DNA of 35,960 bases, taken from contig JADYXS010000034.1 of the NCBI GenBank assembly GCA_021772155.1, positions 1 to 35,960 on the forward strand, given 5' to 3'. The stretch is from Candidatus Obscuribacter sp. (GTDB taxonomy: Bacteria > Cyanobacteriota > Vampirovibrionia > Obscuribacterales > Obscuribacteraceae). Below are positions 1,513 through 35,960 of this stretch, in pieces (the first letter of the stretch is position 1; every line of letters begins with the position of its first letter). The notes under the pieces are model-generated. The model was not told the DNA's origin and searched no databases. It saw nothing but the letters and a program-made list of their open reading frames with translations. The translations under genes and the position numbers were made by a program.

Positions 1513-4173
1513 CTAGCGTTTGGTTGGAGCAGAACTTAACAGGATCTTAATTTCGCGGTCCAGCTCCTTAAGCTGTTCCATCTTGTCTTCTTGTCCGAAG
1601 TAGACTGCGTTATACGTGTCCATGAAGGCCGCCAACCGCTTTGCCAGAGTTTCGTCACTCTGTTGGTCGCGTAACTTTTGCAGTAATTTGGTGACGATAT
1701 CACTGCCGGTATCAGCGGGGGTCTTTGCAACACCGAACTTCGTCAGGCTTTTCACGATTCTGTCCTTCATCTTCGTTGCCGGATGGCGATGAGCCATCGC
1801 ATGAATTGCAGTCCGTATGACACCGTTGGCAGCTTGTAACCCTAGATAGAGTGCAAATGCTGCAACAGCAAGTGAAATTGCACCCAAGATTTTGCCGACC
1901 CAAGACAGAGCTGTTGTTACAGCATTCACGGAGGAAGATTTGGCCTTATCCGTGTAGGCCGTGATTTCTCGCTGTATCCGCTGGTAGTTGTAATAGCTCT
2001 CCTCTGGGCGTGACGGTAATTGCCCGCCTGGAGTAGGGTCAAACGGCACCCAGCCGTATGGCGGCATGTAGACTTCCGCCCAGGCGTGTGAGTGCTTTCT
2101 CTTGACGTGTGTTGCACCAGTCACGGGGTCAAAGTCACCTGGTAAGTAACCGGCAACAAATCGTGCCGGAATCTCTACAGCGCGGCACATCATTACAAAA
2201 GCGGAGGCAAAGGCTTTACAGTCACCTTTCTTTGCGTCGAACAGGAATGCATCAACGAAGTTCGTTTTTGTCGGCGTATCAACTGGTTGTATCGAATACG
2301 CGTAGCTTTTTCGCAAATGTAGCAGCAGGCGTTCCGCTCGTCGGAATCGGTTGCCATCTTCTCCTGCAAGCTCTGACGACAATTGAAACAACTTTTGACT
2401 TTGGTTGTCTGGGATTTCCAAATAGTTATCGATACCGTCCGGTTCCAGTTCGGTGACTGGTTTCGCAGTTCTCATGTCGTCGAGAGCATAGACCGGCAGC
2501 TGAGCCAGCACCGAGTAGTTTGTGCCAGCCAACAATGGGTTAGATGCTTTGATGCTGCCGAAGGCATCCACTGTCACCCGTTGAAGAAGTGAGAGGTGCT
2601 GCGGGATGCCGGCGACCGGCACGTAGTAACCAAGGTTCGACTCAACTTTATACGTCTGCACTAAATCCATGATTGGTACAGCGTACGAAAATTTTAGAGG
2701 AGCACACTCTAGGGCAACACCGTTCGAATTTGGATCAAATTCCCAAACATTTCCGGTGCCTTTACGCGACCACTTGCGCCCATTGAATGTGTCCATCGCC
2801 ATAAATTTTGTATATACCTTTCGTGTGCAAGCAAGAGAAAACATCGGCTCCTCAGGGTCCTTCATGGCCTGACTTAGGGAAATCGAACTTTCGTCCAAAA
2901 CCTCCGTGCGATTTTTGCTTGTTTCATTTTGTCTGGCTTTGTTGGCGGTTTCTTGGGGCGCGACATCAACCTTGGATTTCTCTCCACCCATTGCTGAATC
3001 TTTCGGGTCGGCACCGTTTTTGCTCGCTTTTGCTGTTTCCGTTTCAGCAGAACTAACCGACGGCTTAGTAGTTTCTTTAATTGTTCCGGTTTTTGTTCCT
3101 TTTATTGTTGAAGCCTTTTCCCCTTTCTTAGGCTGGTTCGATGCCCGTTGCATCGAGGCTTTCGACTGTTTGAGATCGTGCGGCCGTTTGTTGGCAGCAG
3201 TGGGAGTTTTGCCTCCACGGTGCTTGTGTGTATTATCGTTGCCCACCGTTGGTGTGGCTGATGATCGAGCATTTTTTTTCTTAGGTGGTGAAGGATCGGT
3301 TTTGTGTTCAGTAGTTTTCTGTGATACTTTGTTCCGTCGTGCTGCTTCTCTTCGACGAGCGCCGTCGAGTTGATTCGGTCCGGGCGAACGGGCAATCGGA
3401 TCCTGGTTGGGCAACAGGTTCACAGTTTGATTCTTTCTCATCTCGTAGATAGTTGCGGTTGCAGAAGCTCTGACTCTGGCAGAAACGCTGTCAGCTTCGT
3501 TATCCAACCTTGGGATGATGCAAAATAGAGCGATGCTGATCAGGGGCAAAAGTAGGATAGTCAGCGCGACGGCACTATTAGTAGTGCCTTGAGTTGTTCG
3601 CTTTATAAATGTTGGCTGCTCTGATTGTGTGGCTTCGTTTCGTGCCTGCGACTGACAGCTGAGCATCAGTAGCACTCCGCCAAGGCAGATGTATAGAAAA
3701 ACTATGCCGCCGAACAACATGCTCTTACCGGAAGTGGCAGCAATGCACAGAAGCAGCAGTCCGAAGGTGGCAGACGCAATGATGTCCGATCTTGTGCGTA
3801 GCTCAAACGAAGTGAGAACGCTCGTCGCCACGAGCGAGTGCATCAACGGTCGCAAAAACTGAAACTGCAATGCATAAAGATTATCTATCCAGAGTTCTTT
3901 TGTTAGGTTCACAACGATCAGTAACACGCCTAGCTTGATCAGTTTAGTTACGACCGGTGGCGTCGCCAGCATGTAGTGGTAACTGAAAACACCGCCGCCG
4001 ATACAAAGCCAAACGCACAGCACAAGCACTGCCATTTGCATGGGATCGAATTGAATTACTGGTACAGCGGATTCGCCAAAGATGAAACTTGCTGTGATAG
4101 CGATAATCGCCATCAAGCAGCAAATGACGCGCAGAGCAATGGAGCTTTCTGGTGGTGCTTTCTTCTTTTCCAC
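1513..4173 (-). CDS. TgpA-type membrane transglutaminase-like protein
   Basis: An 886-residue integral membrane protein with a transglutaminase-like (papain-fold) domain. Hydrophobic segments lie at about 12-33, 46-66, 73-91, 134-150, 152-173 and 200-221, and one more follows the catalytic domain at 756-778. The catalytic triad is visible: Cys652 in GDCKAF, His697 in SHAWAEV and Asp712 in FDPTPGG. The C-terminal 90 residues resemble the DUF4129-type cytoplasmic tail of this family. Residues about 224-425 form a Lys/Thr/Ser/Asn-rich, probably disordered linker, much longer than I expect in TgpA proteins. By topology it should be extracytoplasmic. The start is GTG at 4173, overlapping the DUF58 stop by one base (TAGTG), so translation is probably coupled. 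It is last in a moxR-DUF58-transglutaminase operon. The family is tied to envelope functions, but its substrate is unknown. Confidence 0.9.
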   Translation of the reverse strand: MEKKKAPPESSIALRVICCLMAIIAITASFIFGESAVPVIQFDPMQMAVLVLCVWLCIGGGVFSYHYMLATPPVVTKLIKLGVLLIVVNLTKELWIDNLYALQFQFLRPLMHSLVATSVLTSFELRTRSDIIASATFGLLLLCIAATSGKSMLFGGIVFLYICLGGVLLMLSCQSQARNEATQSEQPTFIKRTTQGTTNSAVALTILLLPLISIALFCIIPRLDNEADSVSARVRASATATIYEMRKNQTVNLLPNQDPIARSPGPNQLDGARRREAARRNKVSQKTTEHKTDPSPPKKKNARSSATPTVGNDNTHKHRGGKTPTAANKRPHDLKQSKASMQRASNQPKKGEKASTIKGTKTGTIKETTKPSVSSAETETAKASKNGADPKDSAMGGEKSKVDVAPQETANKARQNETSKNRTEVLDESSISLSQAMKDPEEPMFSLACTRKVYTKFMAMDTFNGRKWSRKGTGNVWEFDPNSNGVALECAPLKFSYAVPIMDLVQTYKVESNLGYYVPVAGIPQHLSLLQRVTVDAFGSIKASNPLLAGTNYSVLAQLPVYALDDMRTAKPVTELEPDGIDNYLEIPDNQSQKLFQLSSELAGEDGNRFRRAERLLLHLRKSYAYSIQPVDTPTKTNFVDAFLFDAKKGDCKAFASAFVMMCRAVEIPARFVAGYLPGDFDPVTGATHVKRKHSHAWAEVYMPPYGWVPFDPTPGGQLPSRPEESYYNYQRIQREITAYTDKAKSSSVNAVTTALSWVGKILGAISLAVAAFALYLGLQAANGVIRTAIHAMAHRHPATKMKDRIVKSLTKFGVAKTPADTGSDIVTKLLQKLRDQQSDETLAKRLAAFMDTYNAVYFGQEDKMEQLKELDREIKILLSSAPTKR

Positions 4174-5543
4174 TACAGAGCCTCCAGATCGTCTTCGCTG
4201 TAAATGGTGGCAACGATGTCTCCAGTTATCTTGGCGGTGCTAAGCTCGTGTCCTTCGGCTGTGAACACAGAAACTAGGTTGACCGGACTTGTTACCTGAT
4301 CGCCAGATTTCTGGCTTCGGAGGAGTCGTTCCGTGGATGGTACCAATGCCAGTAATTGGCGATTCGTCTGGATCTCCGGCACTGGAAGGTTTCTACTAAT
4401 TGGCTCGACCCGGGCGAGAATCTCGGACAACATTTCGATTGGCGGCCTCGCCAGAGGTAGATCCTGCATCAGCGTTTCCAGTTCCGCCGAGCCGAGTGCC
4501 GGCCTCAAATACAGTTCCGGAAGTATGTCGCGGTCGTATCCGAAGTGCACCAGAGAGTGGGCGAGGCACACTGCCAGCTCGAACTGTTCGCGGTTCTGCC
4601 AGTTTGCCGTAAGGTCTAAATACAAATCAAAGATCGGCAGTGTCTCTGAGTCAAATTGACGCACCAGGAGTTTAGACTGCTTTGCACTAGAGGGCCAGTG
4701 GATGTGCCTTAGGCTATCTCCGACACGAAACTCTCGCAGCCCGCGAACACTAGTTGATTGAGTGAAGGCCAAGACTTCCGAGAAGGCCATGCCCATGGTC
4801 GACAGCATACCTTTTATCTGAAGCAGAAAGTTCCCTCGCATGGAGCAGGTTCGCGGATAGACGACGATGGTGTCTGCATGGTGCACGCTCTTTGCCGGCG
4901 TGATTTTGCGACTCCACCAGACCAATCCGAACGGGAATGCACTGCAGACCGTCACATGGCTCATCTTGAACACACCACGTTGTAAACGTGGCACAGACAA
5001 TGATAATGTGGTGCCTTGCCCGGCGGAATCAAGCCAAATTGATTGTTCACTAAGGTCTTTATTTGCCTGAAACCCGGTTACTTCGCGACGCGCAAGAATT
5101 ATGCGCGCCCGCAAAGCATTGATCGGCACAAGATATCTGCCTGAACCGATCCATCGGACGTGGCGAATCACGACAGAAATAAAGGCATCATCCGCGGCGA
5201 TTCCATTATCCGGTAACCAACAATCGACTGCGATTGTGGAAATGATCAAAAATGGCAGGATTGCGCCTAATACTGCAACAACGAACATTGCGCAGGACAG
5301 CAGATAAAGCCACTCGTTAGCTAAAAAGGCTGCAAGCAAGTAAAGAATAACACCAGCAAATATTGAAGTAATTAATTTTGAATCAACTGAAGCACGCCAT
5401 GAGTTACCGAACGAAATGCTGAATGCATGCGCGACACCTAGGCCCGAAGGATCGTGATCCTCCTGCGTCAGCGGTTTGTTCCTGAGCCGGAAATTAGCCG
5501 GGAACGGCCACCGAGTCCAGAACGCTTTGAATGAGGTCTGCAT
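4173..5543 (-). CDS. DUF58 domain-containing membrane protein
   Basis: A 456-residue protein. Two adjacent hydrophobic segments lie at about 57-73 and 79-105. A DUF58 (von Willebrand factor A-like) core follows, with the family signature near 270-297: REFRVGDSLRHIHW and then LLVRQF. DUF58 proteins are regularly encoded beside MoxR ATPases and are thought to be their partners or clients. Here the gene sits between moxR and the transglutaminase gene, as in the classic cluster. Its ATG at 5543 lies inside the end of moxR, a 50-base overlap, and the ribosome-binding site is weak (GGAT). That fits translational coupling, although a later start cannot be excluded. The family is firm; the biochemical role is not known. 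Confidence 0.9.
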   Translation of the reverse strand: MQTSFKAFWTRWPFPANFRLRNKPLTQEDHDPSGLGVAHAFSISFGNSWRASVDSKLITSIFAGVILYLLAAFLANEWLYLLSCAMFVVAVLGAILPFLIISTIAVDCWLPDNGIAADDAFISVVIRHVRWIGSGRYLVPINALRARIILARREVTGFQANKDLSEQSIWLDSAGQGTTLSLSVPRLQRGVFKMSHVTVCSAFPFGLVWWSRKITPAKSVHHADTIVVYPRTCSMRGNFLLQIKGMLSTMGMAFSEVLAFTQSTSVRGLREFRVGDSLRHIHWPSSAKQSKLLVRQFDSETLPIFDLYLDLTANWQNREQFELAVCLAHSLVHFGYDRDILPELYLRPALGSAELETLMQDLPLARPPIEMLSEILARVEPISRNLPVPEIQTNRQLLALVPSTERLLRSQKSGDQVTSPVNLVSVFTAEGHELSTAKITGDIVATIYSEDDLEAL

Positions 5544-6480
5544 GACTGATCCGTTTCGCCTTCACTTTCGGCACGATTCTATGTCCAAGTACACTCGGCG
5601 CAATTTCCTTAATATCCTCGGGCGTTACATAGTTTCGCCCGGCGATAAATGCCGCAGCCTGTGCCGCTCGAAGCAGAAGCTGGCTCCCGCGAGGGCTTAC
5701 TCCAAGCACGATCGATGGATGTTGCCTGGTTGTATTCACGACGGCTATGATGTATTTAATTAGCGTCTCATGTACAAAGACCTTTCGTGCCGCCAGCTGA
5801 GCCATTTCTACTTCTTCCGTCGTAAGTATGGGCTGTGCCGTAAAAGTGTCTTCGCTGAGAGTTTTGGCCAGAATGAGTGCTTCTTCGTCCGGCTTGGGGT
5901 AGCCCAGTGACAATGCAATCATGAATCGGTCCAGTTGCGCCTCCGGCAAGGGGAACGTGCCTTGTTGCTCAATCGGATTCTGCGTGGCCAGCACGAAGAA
6001 AAGTTGCGGCAATTTTCTGGTGATACCGTCTGTGGTGACCTGTCGCTCTTCCATTGCTTCCAACAAGCTTGATTGTGTTCGCGGCGTTGCTCGATTAATT
6101 TCGTCGGTCAGCAGAATGTTAGTAAAAATGGGACCGGGCATGAACTTAAAGATGCCTTCCTTCTGTTCAAACACCGATACTCCGGATACGTCGGAAGGCA
6201 GCAAGTCCGGAGTACACTGAATGCGCTTGAATGTCCCCATGATGGATAACGCAAGACTCTTCGCCAGAAGCGTCTTTCCCACTCCGGGGACATCTTCGAT
6301 GATCACATGCCCACCCGCAATCAAGGCAATCACTGCTAGTCTTGCAGCTTTCGATTGACCGACGAGTACGTTGTTTATATTGTTGAGCAGAGCCTGAGCC
6401 TTCGCGCTCAGTGCCAGATGCTCGGGTGATTTTTCAAGGGTACCGGCTGGCTTCACGCCCTCAATGACCTCAATTAGCAT
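5494..6480 (-). CDS. MoxR-family AAA+ ATPase
   Basis: A 328-residue MoxR-type AAA+ ATPase, a chaperone-like ATPase that remodels partner proteins in the cytoplasm. Walker A is at 64-71 (VPGVGKTL). Walker B is at 122-128 (ILLTDEI), followed by NRA. Sensor 1 is LATQNP at 164-169 and the sensor 2 region is SPRGSQ at 262-267. The C-terminal lid reads through GRNYVTPEDIKEIAP, typical of the family, and the length is normal. It is the first gene of the operon with DUF58 and the transglutaminase. I infer that it activates or assembles the DUF58 or transglutaminase membrane proteins. The start is ATG at 6480 with only a weak ribosome-binding site. The 189 bases upstream, to the glucosidase stop, should contain the operon promoter, but I cannot fix a -35/-10 pair there. 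Confidence 0.93.
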   Translation of the reverse strand: MLIEVIEGVKPAGTLEKSPEHLALSAKAQALLNNINNVLVGQSKAARLAVIALIAGGHVIIEDVPGVGKTLLAKSLALSIMGTFKRIQCTPDLLPSDVSGVSVFEQKEGIFKFMPGPIFTNILLTDEINRATPRTQSSLLEAMEERQVTTDGITRKLPQLFFVLATQNPIEQQGTFPLPEAQLDRFMIALSLGYPKPDEEALILAKTLSEDTFTAQPILTTEEVEMAQLAARKVFVHETLIKYIIAVVNTTRQHPSIVLGVSPRGSQLLLRAAQAAAFIAGRNYVTPEDIKEIAPSVLGHRIVPKVKAKRISHADLIQSVLDSVAVPG

Positions 6481-9703: not shown

Positions 9704-9736
9704 AGTTCATCCTCTTCGTTAGGAGCATGATAATAA

Positions 9737-9761
9737 CAATTAAGCCCGTGCTTGTCCCTCC
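9737..9761 (+). repeat. Leader element shared by both kinase genes, copy 1
   Basis: A block starting caatta and ending gcttgtccctcc lies 39 bases before the TTG start of kinase 1. It recurs at 11810-11833 before kinase 2. The last 12 bases are identical, and the rest differs by a few substitutions and one indel. It could be a regulatory site or simply the edge of the duplicated unit. Confidence 0.6.
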
Positions 9762-9800
9762 TCAAGAGCCGGTGGGTATATCCTGCTAGAGGTTTTAACG

Positions 9801-11795
9801 TTGAGCAAACTGCTTCCCGGAACGATCATTGATGGCAGCTTTAAGGTTATCGGCGAGATCGGTAGTGGTGGCATGGGTGTTGTGTATCGTGCTTTGCACT
9901 TGATCATGCAGCGGGAAGTTGCAATCAAAGTGTTGAAGTCCGAACATAACTGCACGGTGGACAAACTACAGCGGTTTCGTCGTGAAGCCCAAATCATCAG
10001 CTGTCTTGATCACCCGAATATAGTCAAAGTCTATGCAATTGGCATGGTTACAGACGAACAGCCGTACATCGCAATGGAGTTTCTCGATGGAAAACAGGTC
10101 AGCGAGATCATTGGTTGCGAAGGACCACTTCCCTGGCAAAAGGCCCTGCCGTTGTTCAAGCAAATTTGCGAAGCTCTGGAATATGCACACAGTATGCAGA
10201 TCATTCACAGAGACATAAAGCCCAGTAACATCCTGCTGTTGCCGCATGAGTCAGATAAACAGTTCAAGGTCAAGTTGCTAGACTTTGGAATTGCAAAGTC
10301 ATTAATCGAATCTGGTCCGAAGCTCACGCTAACCGAAATGGTTCTCGGCAGCATTTCCTATCTCAGCCCCGAACAAATCAAGGGACTGCCTGCAAATAAA
10401 CACTCGGACATGTATTCTTTGGGCTGCACATTCTTTGAGATTTTGGCCGGTCAAGCCCCATTCATCGGGGATACCGTGTTTGAAACCATAGCAAAGCAAT
10501 GTTCTGATCTGCCACCGGCAATCGGGCAGATAAACCAAAGCGCCACTTGTCCGTCGGACTTGGAATACATTGTCCAATTCATGTTGCGGAAGGATCCGAA
10601 AGAACGTCCAGAATCGATGAGTTGCGTTCTGAAAATGCTCGAGCAAATTGAGCAAGGAAAGAGTGTCAGTCGAACTCCATCGAAACCGCCCCAGTCCCCA
10701 AGGCAGTTTTGCGCGCGATTGATAAAAGCTGTACCGCTGATGGTGTTTATATTTGCGCTTCTCGGATTAGTTGCCATCGGTGTCAGTCAAGCCTATGCAT
10801 TCTTGCAAGCGCCAGTAGTTTCTATATCTGTCACGGACAAAGAAGCCGTACGACTTTGTGAACGAGTCAAAAGTCTGAAAAAAAATCGTGATGAACGCAT
10901 CTACCGACACTATAGCGAGCTTCAAAGCTATTATTTCAAGCGCGCTCAGTATATGGAAGCGCAAATCGTTGGAGAAGCCGCTGTGAAGTGGATGTCGGAA
11001 GTTGCTCCTGAGCACGTGTGGCGCGAAAGGATTTTGCGGATTCTTGGAGCCGCTTACTGTGCCACAGGAGCTTACGACAAATCTCTGAAATGTTCTCAGG
11101 AGATTTTAGATTTGCCAACTGGCAGGAGAATAGATCCGAAATTCTCAGCGTATTACGGGAAGCTTGGTGTATACGCTGCACAAGGGCAATGGGAAGAGGC
11201 TAACAAGTATATTCCGTTTCTAATAGAGCAAGCAGCCGACAGGCGAAAAAGCTTAACTGAGTGTTCGAACATATATAAATGGTCAGTTCTGGCAATGAAT
11301 GGCATGCAAAGGCAATGTGATGCGCTCGTTGCTGCACGACGCTATTTAGAAATGGCAAGGGAAGCCGATAATCGGCTTGCTATTCTTGAGGCCCGAGCGC
11401 TACTTCTGGATGTGGAAGATGCCATCGCGCCCGGTGCCAGCGTCACCAAGCAGCTCGACGAGCTTCGAAGAGAACTCGAATCAGCAGGAAGCAGTGAATC
11501 AGCATCAATTGGGTTCACTTCGCTGGCGCGCGTGAGCCAGCGAAATGGCGATAGGCACGATGCGACCCAGCTCTACAAAAAAGCTGCGGGTTTGGCTCTT
11601 CGCCCAGTCAACTCTAGTCCGGCCGAACGACTCCATGGCTACACCTTGGCGTTACAGATCTTGAAGGAGTGCCGGGGAATAGCTAGCACCTCGTATAGGG
11701 GCGAGCTCGCCCTCAAAAGTAAAGTATTGGACACCGATCGCAAAGAGTTTGAAACCAAGGCGAACTTGCGGACAAATGTCAAAGTGCCAATTTGA
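9801..11795 (+). CDS. Transmembrane Ser/Thr protein kinase with TPR-like sensor half (copy 1)
   Basis: A 664-residue Hanks-type (PknB-like) receptor kinase. The cytoplasmic catalytic domain spans about 14-275: Gly loop GSGGMG at 21-26, Lys43 in AIK, Glu62 of helix C, HRDIKPSN at 136-143, DFG at 161-163 and SPE at 189-191. All catalytic residues are present, so it should be active. A juxtamembrane segment and one membrane helix (308-330) follow. The outer half (about 335-664) is helical, with TPR-like pairs such as ATGAYDKSLKC and AAQGQWEEA. It ends in RTNVKVPI. The start is TTG at 9801 behind AGAGG at good spacing. It is tandem with copy 2, whose catalytic domain is nearly 90% identical over the first 200 residues by my count. 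The ligand and targets are unknown. Confidence 0.93.
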   Translation: MSKLLPGTIIDGSFKVIGEIGSGGMGVVYRALHLIMQREVAIKVLKSEHNCTVDKLQRFRREAQIISCLDHPNIVKVYAIGMVTDEQPYIAMEFLDGKQVSEIIGCEGPLPWQKALPLFKQICEALEYAHSMQIIHRDIKPSNILLLPHESDKQFKVKLLDFGIAKSLIESGPKLTLTEMVLGSISYLSPEQIKGLPANKHSDMYSLGCTFFEILAGQAPFIGDTVFETIAKQCSDLPPAIGQINQSATCPSDLEYIVQFMLRKDPKERPESMSCVLKMLEQIEQGKSVSRTPSKPPQSPRQFCARLIKAVPLMVFIFALLGLVAIGVSQAYAFLQAPVVSISVTDKEAVRLCERVKSLKKNRDERIYRHYSELQSYYFKRAQYMEAQIVGEAAVKWMSEVAPEHVWRERILRILGAAYCATGAYDKSLKCSQEILDLPTGRRIDPKFSAYYGKLGVYAAQGQWEEANKYIPFLIEQAADRRKSLTECSNIYKWSVLAMNGMQRQCDALVAARRYLEMAREADNRLAILEARALLLDVEDAIAPGASVTKQLDELRRELESAGSSESASIGFTSLARVSQRNGDRHDATQLYKKAAGLALRPVNSSPAERLHGYTLALQILKECRGIASTSYRGELALKSKVLDTDRKEFETKANLRTNVKVPI

Positions 11796-11809
11796 GGTAG
11801 GTCACGCAA

Positions 11810-11833
11810 CAATTAGGCCACGCTTGTCCCTCC
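11810..11833 (+). repeat. Leader element shared by both kinase genes, copy 2
   Basis: This is the counterpart of 9737-9761. It lies 36 bases before the TTG of kinase 2 and 14 bases past the kinase 1 stop, so copy 2 may have its own promoter or control site instead of relying only on read-through. Confidence 0.6.
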
Positions 11834-11869
11834 ATCGGTCCTACGGTATTTTCAGCAAGAGGTTTAACA

Positions 11870-13834
11870 TTGAGCAGCCTGCTTCCTGGAACGATCATTG
11901 ATGGCAATTTTAAGGTTATCGGCGAGATCGGTAGTGGTGGCATGGGCGTTGTCTATCGTGCTTTGCACATGATTATGCAGCGGGAAGTTGCAATTAAAGT
12001 ATTGAGGTCTGATCATAACTGCGAGGTGGAAAAACTCCAGCGGTTCCGGCGTGAAGCCCGAATCATCAGCTCTCTTGACCATCCCAATATAGTCAAAGTC
12101 TATGCAATTGGCATGGTTACAGACGAACAGCCGTACATTGCAATGGAGTATCTGGCTGGAAAACAGGTCAGCGAGATCATCGGTGGCGAAGGACCATTTC
12201 CCTGGCGGAAAGCCCTTCCGCTGTTCAAGCAAATTTGCCAAGCTCTAGAATATGCGCACAGCATGCAGATCATTCACAGAGATATAAAACCCAGTAACAT
12301 CCTGCTGTTGCCGCATGAGTCAGATGAACAGTTCCGCGTCAAGTTGCTCGATTTTGGAATCGCGAAATCATTGATTGAATCTGGTCCGAAGCTCACTCAA
12401 ACGGAGATGGTTTTGGGAAGTGTTGTCTATATTAGCCCGGAGCAAATTCAAGGACTGCCTGCGAGTCAGCACTCGGACATGTATTCCTTGGGCTGCACGT
12501 TCTTCGAGATTTTGACTGGTCAACCTCCTTTCATGGGGGATACCGTATTTGAAACCATAGCCAAGCAGTGCACTGATGCGCCGCCGGCAATCCGCCAGAT
12601 AAATAAGAGCTCCGATTGTCCCTCCGACGTGGAGTATGTCGTTCAATGCATGCTGCAGAAGGATCCCCAAGACCGTCCAGAATCGATGACTTCTCTTCTG
12701 CAAATGCTTGATCAAATTCAAAAAGGTAAAAGCATTAGCCATGCCGCATTAAAACAGCGACTCCCGCAAAAACAGTTTTCGGCGCGGATCTGGGCAGCAG
12801 TAGCAGTATTAATTGTGGTGCTGGTGGCAGTATCGTGGGTTGGCTACACCACAACTGCAAAGGGTTCGCTCGGGTGGATTCAAGCAAATCCTACGACCAA
12901 AGCAGACGGTGAAGCACAACGCCTTGGTGCGTTAATAAAGAGTCTGGCTGACAGTAACGACACGATCATTTACAGGCACTACACCGATCTACAGAAGCAT
13001 TACAAGCTCCACCAGCAGTTCCTGAAAGCACAACTGGTTGCCGAAGCGGCTCTAAAACGGATGTCCCCGCGTGACAACGTGTGGCGCAGGCCGATGTTAG
13101 CCGCTCTCGGCGAGGACTACTGTGCCACCGGCCTTTTCGACAAGGCCGCGCAATGTTTTGCTGAAAGTGCGCAGATAAAACCAGACGGACAGAACTACGG
13201 AATGCTTCATGTCTATGCTGCTCAAGGACAATGGGAAAAGGCTGCTCCGTTCATTCCTGTAGAAAAAGCGGACTTCAGAAATAGGGACACAACTGGGCCG
13301 CCATATGTCATCAGGTGGTCAACACTGACTTTGAACGGTTTGGGACGTTATCCGGAGGCGTTGAAGTGGGCGCGACGTAACTTAAGCCTTGTGGGCGAAG
13401 AACATCGCAAAGCCAGAAGCTTACTTGAAGCAAGAGCGTTACTGCTTGATGCTGAAGAGGCAACTGCAAAAGGTGTTGATTACAGCAAACAAGTCGACCA
13501 ACTTCGAGCCGATGTCCAACAGGCAGCAGGCGGTGAAGCGACGGCAATCGCCTTTATTTCGCTGGCGCGCATTAAAGAGAGAAATGGTGACATTCGCATG
13601 GCGACACATTATTACAGGAAAGCCGCCGACCGAGCGGTCGCTCAAGAAGGTGCAAATCCGGCTGCGCGTCTTCGTAGCTACCTTTTGGCCTTACAGTCTT
13701 TGCACGAGTGCAAGCCTATTGCTCGCTCAATGGAAGTGCCCACGATTGATTTCAAAATTGGCGAATTTGAGAAACAAGTGAAATTGTTGAAAGACGCGGC
13801 CAACGACCGGACGAATGTTGCTATACCAATCTAA
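11870..13834 (+). CDS. Transmembrane Ser/Thr protein kinase with TPR-like sensor half (copy 2)
   Basis: A 654-residue paralogue of the preceding gene with the same architecture. The kinase domain spans 14-275: GSGGMG 21-26, Lys43, Glu62, HRDIKPSN 136-143, DFG 161-163, SPE 189-191. One membrane helix lies at about 307-326, followed by an outer helical half with TPR-like units such as ATGLFDKAAQCF and AAQGQWEKAAPF, ending in RTNVAIPI. Over residues 1-200 I count about 24 differences from copy 1. The outer half is far more diverged, with gaps, apart from islands around LEARALLLD and the C-terminal RTNV-x-x-PI. The start is TTG at 11870 behind AAGAGG, the same arrangement as copy 1. The gap to copy 1 is 74 bases. 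Likely outcome: the same output with a different sensed signal (inference). Confidence 0.93.
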   Translation: MSSLLPGTIIDGNFKVIGEIGSGGMGVVYRALHMIMQREVAIKVLRSDHNCEVEKLQRFRREARIISSLDHPNIVKVYAIGMVTDEQPYIAMEYLAGKQVSEIIGGEGPFPWRKALPLFKQICQALEYAHSMQIIHRDIKPSNILLLPHESDEQFRVKLLDFGIAKSLIESGPKLTQTEMVLGSVVYISPEQIQGLPASQHSDMYSLGCTFFEILTGQPPFMGDTVFETIAKQCTDAPPAIRQINKSSDCPSDVEYVVQCMLQKDPQDRPESMTSLLQMLDQIQKGKSISHAALKQRLPQKQFSARIWAAVAVLIVVLVAVSWVGYTTTAKGSLGWIQANPTTKADGEAQRLGALIKSLADSNDTIIYRHYTDLQKHYKLHQQFLKAQLVAEAALKRMSPRDNVWRRPMLAALGEDYCATGLFDKAAQCFAESAQIKPDGQNYGMLHVYAAQGQWEKAAPFIPVEKADFRNRDTTGPPYVIRWSTLTLNGLGRYPEALKWARRNLSLVGEEHRKARSLLEARALLLDAEEATAKGVDYSKQVDQLRADVQQAAGGEATAIAFISLARIKERNGDIRMATHYYRKAADRAVAQEGANPAARLRSYLLALQSLHECKPIARSMEVPTIDFKIGEFEKQVKLLKDAANDRTNVAIPI

Positions 13835-13954: not shown

Positions 13955-14521
13955 ATGGAAAAGCAGTTGGAACCGACCCCCAGCTCGACGGCCAATATTT
14001 TGACTGAGACGATTGAAACGTTTAAGGCCATTATCCTGTCACCGTCCGAATTTTTCCAAAACATGCCTCTGGACGGTGGCTTGCAAAAGCCTGTTGTGTT
14101 CTTGTTGATAGCCTCTGTGGTCTCGTCGCTTGGAATACTGGTCATCTCGCAACAGCCGCTGCAGGCTGTGCAAGAATTGGGTGTGAGGCTAGTTACCAGT
14201 TTCGTAAGCGCTGCTTATTTGTTCCTGATTTGTCGTGGAGTGGGCGGGCAGGGCACGTTTGAAGGCACATTCCGAGCTTTTGTCTATGCGTCGGCTCCGG
14301 CGATCTTTTCATGGGTTCCGCTGGTCAATGTGCTGGCGGTTATTTACACGCTGTTCCTGCTAAAAATGGGGCTTGAAAAGGCACATGATTTGAGCCCACA
14401 AAGGTCTATGACCGCAGTTGGCATTTGGCTTGTGACTCTAATTGTCTTGATTGTAATTGTAACCATGGCGACTACTGCAGCAGTGTTCAAGCCAAAGGAA
14501 AGCGGCATTCCTGGTATCTAG
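13955..14521 (+). CDS. Yip1-family membrane protein
   Basis: A 188-residue protein with an N-terminal amphipathic stretch carrying the Yip1-type motif LSPSEFFQNMP (28-38). Hydrophobic segments lie at about 46-64, 76-93, 112-137 and 152-175. Bacterial Yip1-domain proteins are poorly characterised multi-pass membrane proteins. It follows the kinase pair on the same strand after 120 bases, so it may be co-transcribed and could be a membrane partner or substrate (inference). It converges on the receiver-kinase gene with 8 bases between stops; CTTGG/CCAAG at 14522-14539 could form a small hairpin there, but no U-tract follows on either strand. The start is ATG at 13955. Confidence 0.75.
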   Translation: MEKQLEPTPSSTANILTETIETFKAIILSPSEFFQNMPLDGGLQKPVVFLLIASVVSSLGILVISQQPLQAVQELGVRLVTSFVSAAYLFLICRGVGGQGTFEGTFRAFVYASAPAIFSWVPLVNVLAVIYTLFLLKMGLEKAHDLSPQRSMTAVGIWLVTLIVLIVIVTMATTAAVFKPKESGIPGI

Positions 14522-14529
14522 CTTGGACC

Positions 14530-15783
14530 CTACGCCAAGGTAAAGACCAATCGTTCAAGTTCTGTTTTGACTTCAAGCATCGTTTGATATCTATCGGCAA
14601 CATCCCGAGCTAAGGCCTTGAAAACGATGGCTTCAAGCGCCTCCGGGCAATTGAGCTGCGGATTGATTGATGCAAATGGCTTTGCGTCTTCCACCGTGCG
14701 GCGATACATGGTGTCCAATACGTTTGCTCCAACGAACGGCTCCTTGCCCACTAGCGTCATGTACATCACGCAACCCAGAGAGAAGATGTCCGTTCTGCAA
14801 TCGAGTTCTGAACCCATGCATTGCTCGGGACTCATGTAGAGGGGGCTTCCCAGCACATCGCCATTTTGAGTTATATGCATGGCTGGATTACTTTCCACTA
14901 CTTTAGCAATACCAAAGTCGACGAGTTTCAGGCTCTCTACTCCAGAGCTGTCTTCGATAATCAGCAAATTGCTTGGTTTTACATCGCGATGAATCACACC
15001 CTTTGAATGTGCATGTGCAAGAGCGTCGCAGGCATCAATGAAAAGTGGAATTGCTTCAGCTGCAGTAATGATGTTACGGCAGACGATGCGGTTCATCAAC
15101 GTTGTTCCGCCAGCATAGTCCATTACTAAATACGGAAGTCCGTCCGCGTTGATACCAAAATCGTAAATTGCAACGATGTTAGGATGAGAAAGAGCGCTCA
15201 CAGCCTGGGCCTCGCGCTTGAAACGAGCTACGCTTTCGGTTTCAGAAACCAATTGAGGGTGCAGTACTTTGAGTGCCACCATGCGACTTAAGTAGAGATG
15301 ATTGGCTTTGTAGATAACGCCGGTACTGCCGCGACCCAGTGTCATTACAATTTCGTAGCGTTCTGCGAAAACTGTTCCTGCTGGTAATTCGCCGATAGGA
15401 ATGCCACCACTGCTGGTGGACTGCGATCGGCGAAGCAATGCTTTGATTCTTGCAAGCAATTCCTTTGGATGAAAAGGCTTGGTCAGATAGTCGTCGGCCC
15501 CGGCGTCAAAGCCCGCCTCCTTTTCTGTCACAAGCTTCTTGCCGGTGAGCATGAGAACCGGAGTATTGCCACCACTGGCGCGATAACGTTTGCAAATGTC
15601 GATGCCCAGAACCTTGGGCATCTCCCAATCTAGGATAATCAGGTCGAAGTTGCGCTGCATTAAGGTGTTCTGGGCATCTTGACCGTTGTCAAATGCTTCG
15701 ACGACGTGCTCATTGGTGCGCAACAGTTCAGAGATCATGTCGCGCAGATCGTCGTAGTCTTCAGCCAGCAGAATCCTTGCCAA
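14530..15783 (-). CDS. Receiver domain-Ser/Thr protein kinase fusion
   Basis: A 417-residue soluble protein. Residues 1-118 are a CheY-like receiver: acidic pocket at 8-9 and 11-12, phospho-acceptor Asp52 in LDWEMP, Thr80 in MLTG and Lys102 in TKPF. A short linker leads to a Hanks-type kinase (about 143-415): Gly loop GRGSTG 150-155, Lys172 in ALK, Glu191, HRDVKPSN 265-272, DFG 289-291 and SPEQ 318-321. Both halves keep their key residues. Two-component phosphorylation could therefore gate Ser/Thr phosphorylation. No histidine kinase is adjacent; the nearest, at 33512-35788, has its own regulator. There is no membrane segment. The start is TTG at 15783 behind GAGG. Confidence 0.92.
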   Translation of the reverse strand: MARILLAEDYDDLRDMISELLRTNEHVVEAFDNGQDAQNTLMQRNFDLIILDWEMPKVLGIDICKRYRASGGNTPVLMLTGKKLVTEKEAGFDAGADDYLTKPFHPKELLARIKALLRRSQSTSSGGIPIGELPAGTVFAERYEIVMTLGRGSTGVIYKANHLYLSRMVALKVLHPQLVSETESVARFKREAQAVSALSHPNIVAIYDFGINADGLPYLVMDYAGGTTLMNRIVCRNIITAAEAIPLFIDACDALAHAHSKGVIHRDVKPSNLLIIEDSSGVESLKLVDFGIAKVVESNPAMHITQNGDVLGSPLYMSPEQCMGSELDCRTDIFSLGCVMYMTLVGKEPFVGANVLDTMYRRTVEDAKPFASINPQLNCPEALEAIVFKALARDVADRYQTMLEVKTELERLVFTLA

Positions 15784-33511: not shown

Positions 33512-35788
33512 TTATCCTCGGCGCGAAACTGCTAGGGCGTTGAGAGGCAGCACATTGGGGTCTGCTACGGTTGTAGCGACGGAACTTGCTGGGAGTGAAA
33601 CTGTGAAAGTGGTGCCAACATCGTGCTCGCTTTCGACGGTGATAGTGCCGCCAAGACGGTCTACCAGAGTCTTAACGATGCTAAGTCCGAGACCTTCACC
33701 GGCGGAAGACGTGGTGAATCCGGAGTTGAAAATGTTTGCCATGTTTAGTTGCGAAATGCCAGACCCATTGTCAGAAACCGAGATTTGATGATGGTTTGCT
33801 CGTGTGCGAGCGCTTACCTCTACGATTGTTCCGGCGGGGTTATGCAATATGGCGTTACACAGCAAATTGTCAACGATCCTTTCCAGTTCAAGCCGTGAAC
33901 AGGAAGTGACCATTGGATAAGTTGGTAGATGGAGCAATATGACGCAATTTTGCATCTCGCCGACGGATCGCTCCATCTGCACGCTATTAGTTAGAACTGT
34001 GCAGATGTCGGAAAGCGCCTGACGAGGAGGTTGCTGCAGGCTGACTTCCTGGTTTGTCTGGCAGTAGCAGTGAACGAGTTCGGCAATCAGTCCAAATAAT
34101 CGATCGGATGTTCTTTCGATGTGCTCGATACGATCTTGGGCGGTCACCGAATGCAGTCCTTCCCTCTTGAGTTTGGACAGAGTCCAATTTAGCACCGTAA
34201 CTGGTGCTTTGAGATCATGGTTGATTCGGCGAACAAACTCGCTTCGTCGTTGTTGATCGAGAGCTAATTCTTTGGCTTGACTTTCCGCAGCTTGAATACG
34301 TAGTTGTGATTCGTGTGTTTCTCTATTGGCTCGGATACTCGCTTCCATAGCCATTATGCGGGTAAGCATCGCGTCTAGCCGCTCGCGCTCGCGTTCGTAA
34401 AGCACTCCGGCAAGGGTTCCGACTGCCACAGCTATTGCCGGGACTACAACCGGTACGATAAGACCAGCAAAGGCAAACCAGAGGAATCCGGCAAAGTACG
34501 CCGCGCACGAAAGAAGTATACAAAGGCACCAGTCAGCCCAAAGTCTGTAAGCCGGATGGCACTTCAAAGAGTTATTCTGCTTGCGAGTCAAGCTGAACAC
34601 AGTGGCAGCTATAATGCAGCAGGCAATCAGATAAACTGCCTGCGCTGGGGCGCTTAGTCGCTGCAGCCAACTTGTGCGCGAAATCGTGTCGATGGAATGG
34701 GCGAGAATTTCAGCGCCACTCATCAGATTGACGCCGACGTTGGTTAGGGGCGTGGCATAAACGTCTTGTACGCCGTCTCCCAGTATCACTACGGCATCAC
34801 CAACGGTGACATCCTCGGAATTTGCGGACGTAATCTCCTTTTGCTTTTCCGGGTCAAGCAAATACGAAAACGGTCGTACTGGATAGGTCTCACTGTTTGG
34901 AGGTGAGGCAAAGTCAATATCGATCACCGATGGCAGTGCTTTTGCCGGCGGCTCTGCCATAGACCTCAAGGCCTTGACCGCGATCGACTCGCGGTCACGT
35001 TCCGCATTTGGCAGGTTACAGGCAATCCTGCGCACCACTTGATCTTGATCGAGAAGTACAGTGGTAAGTCCGGTGTACTTTTCGGCGGTATCCGTTCCGG
35101 GCTCCAGCTTTTGCAGCTGCGATAAAATGCCTACCGGCATTGTCATCGCGTCAAGTTGCATTCCGCCGTTAAAGCTTCGTCTGTTGATGGTTGAGGCCAT
35201 GAGGACTGGGATGGATCTTCCACTGAATTTGCCTGTGCTGCAGTCATGGATTGCAGCGGCAAGATCTTTGTCGTGGTCTGAATATTGTGGGAAATCGTTG
35301 TCCAGAATTATCAGACGAGCGCCGTTTTGCGCAAGGAATCGGACTGCCGCGGCTACTGTCTTGCGCGATACAGGATGTCGCAACAGAGGCTCCATCCACG
35401 GATGCTCGGCTACCGCATCTGGTGGCGGTTCATCTTCCAAAAGGTGATTGAAGATGATGAATTTGTGCTTTACCGGAGCGTGGTTATCGGCTATCGCCCA
35501 ACTGAGCGTGTAGTCCCAAGCCCAGATCCGGTGAGGGATTTCGTGCGCCTCATGATATTTCCAAAGGGCAACCGGATTCAGTCGATGAAGTCCGGTTTGA
35601 GACCATTTGAGCCACGGGCGAGCTTCGAACATACGATTGGTCGACTGCAGTTCGACGCGATCAAGACAGCCGCTAAAGTTGAGCGCCAACGCGCTAAAGC
35701 TCGCAACGATAGCGCAAAGAGTGAACAATCGAAGTCTATTTTGCCCTTGATGTTGCTCTGTGCAGCTTATCGCTATATCGCTGTCCAT
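33512..35788 (-). CDS. CHASE2-domain sensor histidine kinase
   Basis: A 758-residue protein from the ATG at 35788. A membrane helix at about 20-38 leads into an extracytoplasmic CHASE2 sensor (roughly 40-375, including LIILDNDFP and DAVVILGDGVQDVYATP). Three membrane helices follow (383-401, 418-436, 440-463), then a coiled linker. The HisKA phospho-acceptor is His524 in RINHDLKAP. The HATPase has an N-box at about 640-651 (VDNLLCNAILHN), G1 DNGSG 673-677 and G2 GEGLGLS 697-703. I chose 35788 because the upstream glycine-rich gene ends four bases before it; a GTG at 35845 would add 19 residues and overlap that gene. It phosphorylates the regulator encoded four bases downstream. The ligand is unknown. 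Confidence 0.92.
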   Translation of the reverse strand: MDSDIAISCTEQHQGQNRLRLFTLCAIVASFSALALNFSGCLDRVELQSTNRMFEARPWLKWSQTGLHRLNPVALWKYHEAHEIPHRIWAWDYTLSWAIADNHAPVKHKFIIFNHLLEDEPPPDAVAEHPWMEPLLRHPVSRKTVAAAVRFLAQNGARLIILDNDFPQYSDHDKDLAAAIHDCSTGKFSGRSIPVLMASTINRRSFNGGMQLDAMTMPVGILSQLQKLEPGTDTAEKYTGLTTVLLDQDQVVRRIACNLPNAERDRESIAVKALRSMAEPPAKALPSVIDIDFASPPNSETYPVRPFSYLLDPEKQKEITSANSEDVTVGDAVVILGDGVQDVYATPLTNVGVNLMSGAEILAHSIDTISRTSWLQRLSAPAQAVYLIACCIIAATVFSLTRKQNNSLKCHPAYRLWADWCLCILLSCAAYFAGFLWFAFAGLIVPVVVPAIAVAVGTLAGVLYERERERLDAMLTRIMAMEASIRANRETHESQLRIQAAESQAKELALDQQRRSEFVRRINHDLKAPVTVLNWTLSKLKREGLHSVTAQDRIEHIERTSDRLFGLIAELVHCYCQTNQEVSLQQPPRQALSDICTVLTNSVQMERSVGEMQNCVILLHLPTYPMVTSCSRLELERIVDNLLCNAILHNPAGTIVEVSARTRANHHQISVSDNGSGISQLNMANIFNSGFTTSSAGEGLGLSIVKTLVDRLGGTITVESEHDVGTTFTVSLPASSVATTVADPNVLPLNALAVSRRG

Positions 35789-35792
35789 GCCG

Positions 35793-35960
35793 TCAGTGCC
35801 CGAATAACGAGCCGGCCAATCCACCGACTGTTCCGCCAAGCCCACCTATTGCCCCGCCCAATCCGCCAAGCAGGCCGCCGGCTGTTCCGCCCACAGCTCC
35901 CCCAACTCCGCCAACAGTGCCGCCCAGTCCACCGACTACACCGCCCAGTCCGCTGACAAG
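35793..35960 (-). CDS. C-terminal end of a glycine-repeat hydrophobic protein (N-terminus beyond window)
   Basis: On the minus strand a frame open at the window edge gives 55 residues and stops at TGA 35795-35793, four bases before the histidine-kinase ATG. It is a run of short GG-x-h-GG units (GGLGG, GGTVGG, GGVGGAVGG, GGLLGG) ending SLFGH. Such Gly/hydrophobic alternation resembles glycine-zipper or filament-forming surface segments. Tight spacing suggests one operon with the CHASE2 kinase and its regulator. The opposite strand is also open here as a Pro-rich frame, so the call relies on context. Confidence 0.6.
   Translation of the reverse strand, partial: LVSGLGGVVGGLGGTVGGVGGAVGGTAGGLLGGLGGAIGGLGGTVGGLAGSLFGH

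Follow-up and report, generated by a model that had tools for sequence, protein, structure and literature searches.

The analysed stretch of DNA (35,960 nucleotides, hereafter the window) lies on contig C721 of a Candidatus Obscuribacter sp. genome (7.0 Mb, 730 contigs, 88% complete, 7% contamination). Two adjacent genes with TTG starts, present where an earlier note on this DNA had placed them, encode the receptor Ser/Thr kinases A (9801..11795, + strand, 664 aa) and B (11870..13834, + strand, 654 aa). Each product contains a full Pfam Pkinase domain (residues 15-275 of A, E=1e-55; residues 15-277 of B, E=7e-59), with scores of 189-200 bits against a cut-off of 31.7. The kinase domain (residues 1-285; 9801..10655 in A and 11870..12724 in B) possesses the G-loop, VAIK, HRD and DFG elements, and the motifs VAIK, HRDIKPSN and DFG are visible in both translations. 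On its 3' side, hydropathy only predicts one transmembrane helix, at residues 310-328 of A (10728..10784, Kyte-Doolittle 2.71) and residues 307-325 of B (12788..12844, Kyte-Doolittle 2.64). Beyond the helix, about 310-320 residues form a putative TPR-like helical-repeat ectodomain in each protein (10830..11792 and 12890..13831), in which the Pfam TPR matches are weak and sub-threshold. By sequence, A and B are predicted to be Hanks-type (PknB-like) transmembrane Ser/Thr kinases with a single helix; because the kinase half is taken as inside, the TPR-like part is probably located outside the cytoplasmic membrane, in the periplasm.

In a two-sequence AlphaFold model, the ectodomain of B is all-helical with a mean pLDDT of 64; a full-length model was set aside at a pLDDT of 45. 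Structural similarity search using Foldseek gave TPR superhelices as the best, albeit weak, matches (E 6e-4, TM about 0.36), and structure comparisons of the same model gave Z of 11-13.8, values that are common among helical repeats. No relative of the ectodomains was found at E<=1e-5 in 49 genomes of the same family.

The kinase/transmembrane/TPR architecture is already known. One report describes, for Candidatus Uabimicrobium amorphum and other Planctomycetota, an expansion of membrane Ser/Thr kinases that carry TPR domains in the periplasm, and mentions large expansions of kinases with periplasmic TPR arrays for myxobacteria (PMC11032199). As predicted for A and B, the Uabimicrobium kinases have the kinase inside and the TPR outside, and they belong to a large lineage-specific expansion, with tandem duplications noted for such bacteria; they differ in coming from another phylum, and the passages on them mention duplication and/or recombination without using the term gene conversion (PMC11032199). 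The PASTA kinases PknB/Stk1 also share the order of kinase, single transmembrane helix and C-terminal outer domain, and the kinase of A/B aligns with the PknB structures 3orm and 1mru. A and B are not PASTA kinases themselves; no PASTA repeats were detected, and the NCBIfam model PknB_PASTA_kin scores 295-314 against a cut-off of 450, on the kinase part only. An anti-phage kinase identity was likewise rejected, as PADLOC matches to PD-T4-6 and MAD6 cover the kinase domain only, a few of them with the transmembrane stretch, the MADS6 equivalog scores 172-175 bits against a cut-off of 460, and no partner gene of an anti-phage system was found among the annotated neighbours.

The duplication extends upstream of the coding regions. 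The leader of A (9718..9800, + strand) contains a shared element at 9737-9761 and a Shine-Dalgarno-like AGAGG site at 9788-9792, which correspond to 11810-11833 and AGAGG at 11858-11862 in the leader of B (11796..11869, + strand). Local alignment of the two leaders scores 67, compared to 32.7 +/- 4.4 for shuffles (maximum 51.5, n=2000) and 31 +/- 4.3 for random 74-mers of the window (maximum 49). The proposal that control sequence had been duplicated together with the genes is thus borne out, with a score far over both backgrounds, although the identity is partial and interrupted by several indels. Further genomic copies of the leader, which the earlier note had suggested searching for, did not turn up. 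The pattern CAATT-N(1-8)-GCTTGTCCCTC has three matches in the 7.0-Mb genome, namely both leaders and a site on contig C18, whose surroundings contain no recognisable kinase leader; the pattern was found at no other kinase. No Rfam element was detected in the window, and a sigma-70 promoter scan under a strict rule gave no + strand site in either leader; TTGTCC paired with TATATC/TATTTT can be read as a promoter by eye only.

At the other end, both proteins keep the tail RTNVxxPI (RTNVKVPI of A, 11769..11792; RTNVAIPI of B, 13808..13831; both + strand), as had been noticed before. Its proposed role as a functional end motif fared less well. The tail is absent from the rest of the 85 kinases checked, and the C31/C482 array has a C-terminal tail of its own, PEPELFK, which is common to most of its members; being private to the pair, RTNVxxPI therefore looks like shared descent.

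Pairwise comparison of A and B revealed 88.0% identity over residues 1-200, without any indel, and 85.1% over residues 1-275, compared to 22% in the juxtamembrane/transmembrane stretch and 40-44% in the ectodomain, the latter varying with the alignment. The earlier estimate of nearly 90% identity over the first 200 residues with patchy similarity beyond is therefore accurate. The closest other kinase of the genome is only 51% identical to the pair. A search for orthologues of A and B gave no relative at E<=1e-90 among 98 related genomes, and none in the genome_contigs database. At nine tandem kinase loci shared by the congeneric genomes G027 and G035, orthologous kinases are 85-98% identical and their ectodomains 50-100% (for example, 0.87/0.50 and 0.93/0.57), and the ratio of log identities ranges from 0 to about 9, compared to about 5 for A/B. 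As single-copy orthologues of related species show the same contrast, the amino-acid pattern alone demonstrates neither conversion nor adaptive diversification, and a conserved kinase next to a diverged sensor is, at the protein level, an ordinary rate difference.

Synonymous sites present a different picture. Among degenerate codons with identical amino acids, synonymous differences between A and B amount to 18% over residues 1-160 (9801..10280 in A and 11870..12349 in B, + strand) and rise to 43-45% afterwards. The breakpoint at residue 160 adjoins DFG and lies inside the kinase domain; the 5' edge of the tract may reach into the leader. The step is significant by permutation in the whole gene (p=0.001) and in the kinase only (p=0.014), as repeated in a second run, and four-fold sites differ between kinase and ectodomain (p=0.0056); p-values here and below are per pair and carry no correction for multiple tests. 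The longest identical run is 53 bp at 10017. By NG86, dS rises from about 0.5 over residues 1-200 to about 1.55 for the ectodomain, rough values since the latter is near saturation, and even divergence along the whole length, the outcome that would have contradicted the earlier note, is thereby ruled out. A stretch with lower synonymous divergence than the flanking coding DNA, by which gene conversion is recognised, is accordingly present in A and B. Omega is 0.14 in the kinase, about 0.33 in the ectodomain and 0.47 in the juxtamembrane region. All windowed values stay below 1; a single one, from a juxtamembrane segment of poor alignment, comes near 0.9. Because omega is below 1 throughout, positive selection is not claimed, and the higher value of the ectodomain would reflect relaxed constraint. 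A diversification of sensed signals remains plausible, though no omega above 1 was obtained.

Comparison with other kinases showed that the step is not a general property of this family of genes. The genome encodes about 150-190 kinases, of which 85 were fetched by array membership or similarity, hence non-randomly. In 120 pairs from different contigs of this genome, the contrast between N and C parts within the kinase averages 0.018 +/- 0.08; that of A/B is 0.20, which is matched by 0.8% of them. The amino-acid identities of the N and C parts are 0.59 versus 0.63 in dispersed pairs, and 0.89 versus 0.78 in A/B. Since dispersed pairs show almost no such contrast, a low 5' divergence is not intrinsic to the N-lobe. 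The mean log ratio of ectodomain to kinase synonymous divergence is 0.28 in tandem pairs (n=17), compared to 0.04 in orthologues taken from another genus of the same family (p=0.007), and the ratio of A/B, 1.79, exceeds the top orthologue value of 1.38. A significant low-5' step was found over the whole gene in 10/22 tandem pairs (all ten among the 20 pairs of this genome) versus 4/21 orthologues, and inside the kinase in 8/22 versus 2/21. In tandem pairs, the mean synonymous profile starts at 0.22 and reaches 0.35-0.40; those of dispersed pairs (0.38-0.45) and orthologues (0.33-0.37) are flat. Adjacent pairs whose kinases are at least 70% identical have kinases of 71-88% and ectodomains of mostly 28-58% identity. 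Several close tandem pairs display no step, which is also absent from two tandem pairs of a second genus (G040/G033; kinases 75-79%, ectodomains 23-29% identical).

Sister arrays of the same genome provide sharper tracts. In the array on contig C591 (L024), the kinases at 3098 and 5702 are 95% identical over 271 bp, from -7 to +263, with strongly diverged flanks; a pair on C263 shows near-identity between the start codon and about +108. In the alignments, the 5' edge of these tracts lies at the start codon or about 25 bases before it, and the 3' edge falls within the N-lobe. They represent two of the ten low-5' pairs, near-identical with sharp edges and divergent upstream DNA. Bounded tracts of this kind are the expected trace of gene conversion, and that of C591 appears to be the clearest conversion tract seen. 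A blastn screen for shared tracts returned mostly overlapping flanks of neighbours, an artefact, with only the C591 tract being real. The assembly is fragmented, but the tracts are short. Homogenisation of the 5' end is not universal, as in nine arrays compared between G027 and G035 the orthologues pair consistently in both halves without conversion. Further arrays, each with three to eight kinases in the same orientation, occur on C192, C447, C31 and C178 (L016-L021). In a first look with the P0002 query, kinase candidates numbered 15-311 per genome in the 49 further members of the family that were screened, versus 0-7 in genomes from other orders of the class.

Altogether, we favour a tandem duplication followed by recombination, most likely gene conversion, that re-homogenised the 5' part, with a probability of roughly two in three (0.65). 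The whole gene was duplicated together with its leader to give the A/B pair; the ectodomains would have diverged first, and recombination between the copies would then have overwritten about 0.5 kb of 5' sequence, covering the N-lobe to about DFG and perhaps some of the leader. Being less constrained, the ectodomains would continue to drift and may sense different ligands. Re-copying of the 5' part would preserve the sequence similarity of the kinase halves, and presumably also similar substrates and output. The earlier suggestion of gene conversion acting on the kinase halves is thus supported by the step within the kinase domain and has to be narrowed, as the tract spans about 160 codons rather than the entire half. 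From the sequences, A and B may plausibly act as receptors that have similar cytoplasmic halves but each its own sensor; that conversion rather than crossover was at work, that the output is shared and that the ligands differ, we infer.

The closest competitor invokes an unequal crossover, by which a chimera joined the leader and 5' end of one copy to the ectodomain of the other, with a copy being lost later. It would likewise produce low 5' and high 3' divergence, the leader is shared too, and the array setting is favourable. Such an event predicts an equally young leader and 5' end, however, whereas the leaders differ by many indels and residues 1-200 by none; in addition, the tracts of C591 and C263 set in no more than a few bases ahead of the coding region, with divergent DNA upstream, which fits conversion better. 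Because the leader alignment is gappy, a chimera is kept for A/B as an unlikely origin. Unequal rates in an ordinary duplication, with strong purifying selection on the kinase, weak selection on the ectodomain and no recombination, would account for the amino-acid contrast shared with orthologues and for omega of 0.14 versus 0.33, but leave unexplained why synonymous differences jump within the kinase domain and why the sister arrays have near-identical bounded tracts; disfavoured also by the 120 dispersed pairs, this explanation seems doubtful for A/B and slightly harder to accept than the chimera. Least credible, and very improbable in our view, is a constraint on synonymous sites near the 5' end, imposed by hidden signals, mRNA structure or translation initiation, that holds the first codons alike. 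The lower 5' divergence of some orthologue pairs (4/21 whole-gene steps) points in this direction, but the mean profiles of dispersed pairs and orthologues are flat and the tract extends over 160 codons.

Recombination between tandem copies, as favoured here, has a counterpart in the mammalian receptors TLR1/TLR6, in which conversion homogenises the transmembrane segment, the TIR domain and neighbouring repeats while the distal sensing part diverges (PMC2077338). Both cases comprise tandem receptors with a homogenised signalling part and a diverging sensor part; in contrast to A and B, TLR1/TLR6 are unrelated animal proteins, with independent conversions in nine species (PMC2077338). In the literature covered, which was partial, we found no report of 5'-biased homogenisation in bacterial receptor-kinase arrays, and nothing relevant on kinases in Obscuribacter, Melainabacteria or Vampirovibrionia. 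More tentatively, the tandem arrays might constitute a diversification system, in which recurrent 5'-anchored conversion keeps the leader and N-lobe uniform and the TPR-like ectodomains diversify, a bacterial form of TLR1/TLR6-like concerted evolution over several arrays of one genome. Two things that are usually merged come apart here: the unequal conservation of the proteins is ordinary, and the homogenisation at the DNA level is real. If 5'-biased conversion were general in kinase-rich bacteria, kinase-domain trees would show paralogues as too young, and recombination would be a bacterial route to one signalling module with varied sensors.

Further signalling and membrane genes surround the pair. 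Directly 3' of kinase B lies a gene for a Yip1-domain membrane protein (13955-14521, + strand), followed by a gene convergent with the pair (14530-15783, - strand), whose product fuses Response_reg (residues 4-114) to Pkinase (residues 143-400) and unites two-component and Ser/Thr signalling in a single protein. A CHASE2 sensor histidine kinase is encoded at the end of the window (33512-35845, - strand), and a gene set for a MoxR-type AAA ATPase, a DUF58 protein and a TgpA-like transglutaminase occupies 1513-6480 (- strand). In keeping with a non-photosynthetic, Obscuribacterales-like relative of cyanobacteria, the argS gene in this DNA most resembles that of Cyanobacteria bacterium REEB67 (69%), followed by those of photosynthetic cyanobacteria (about 60%).
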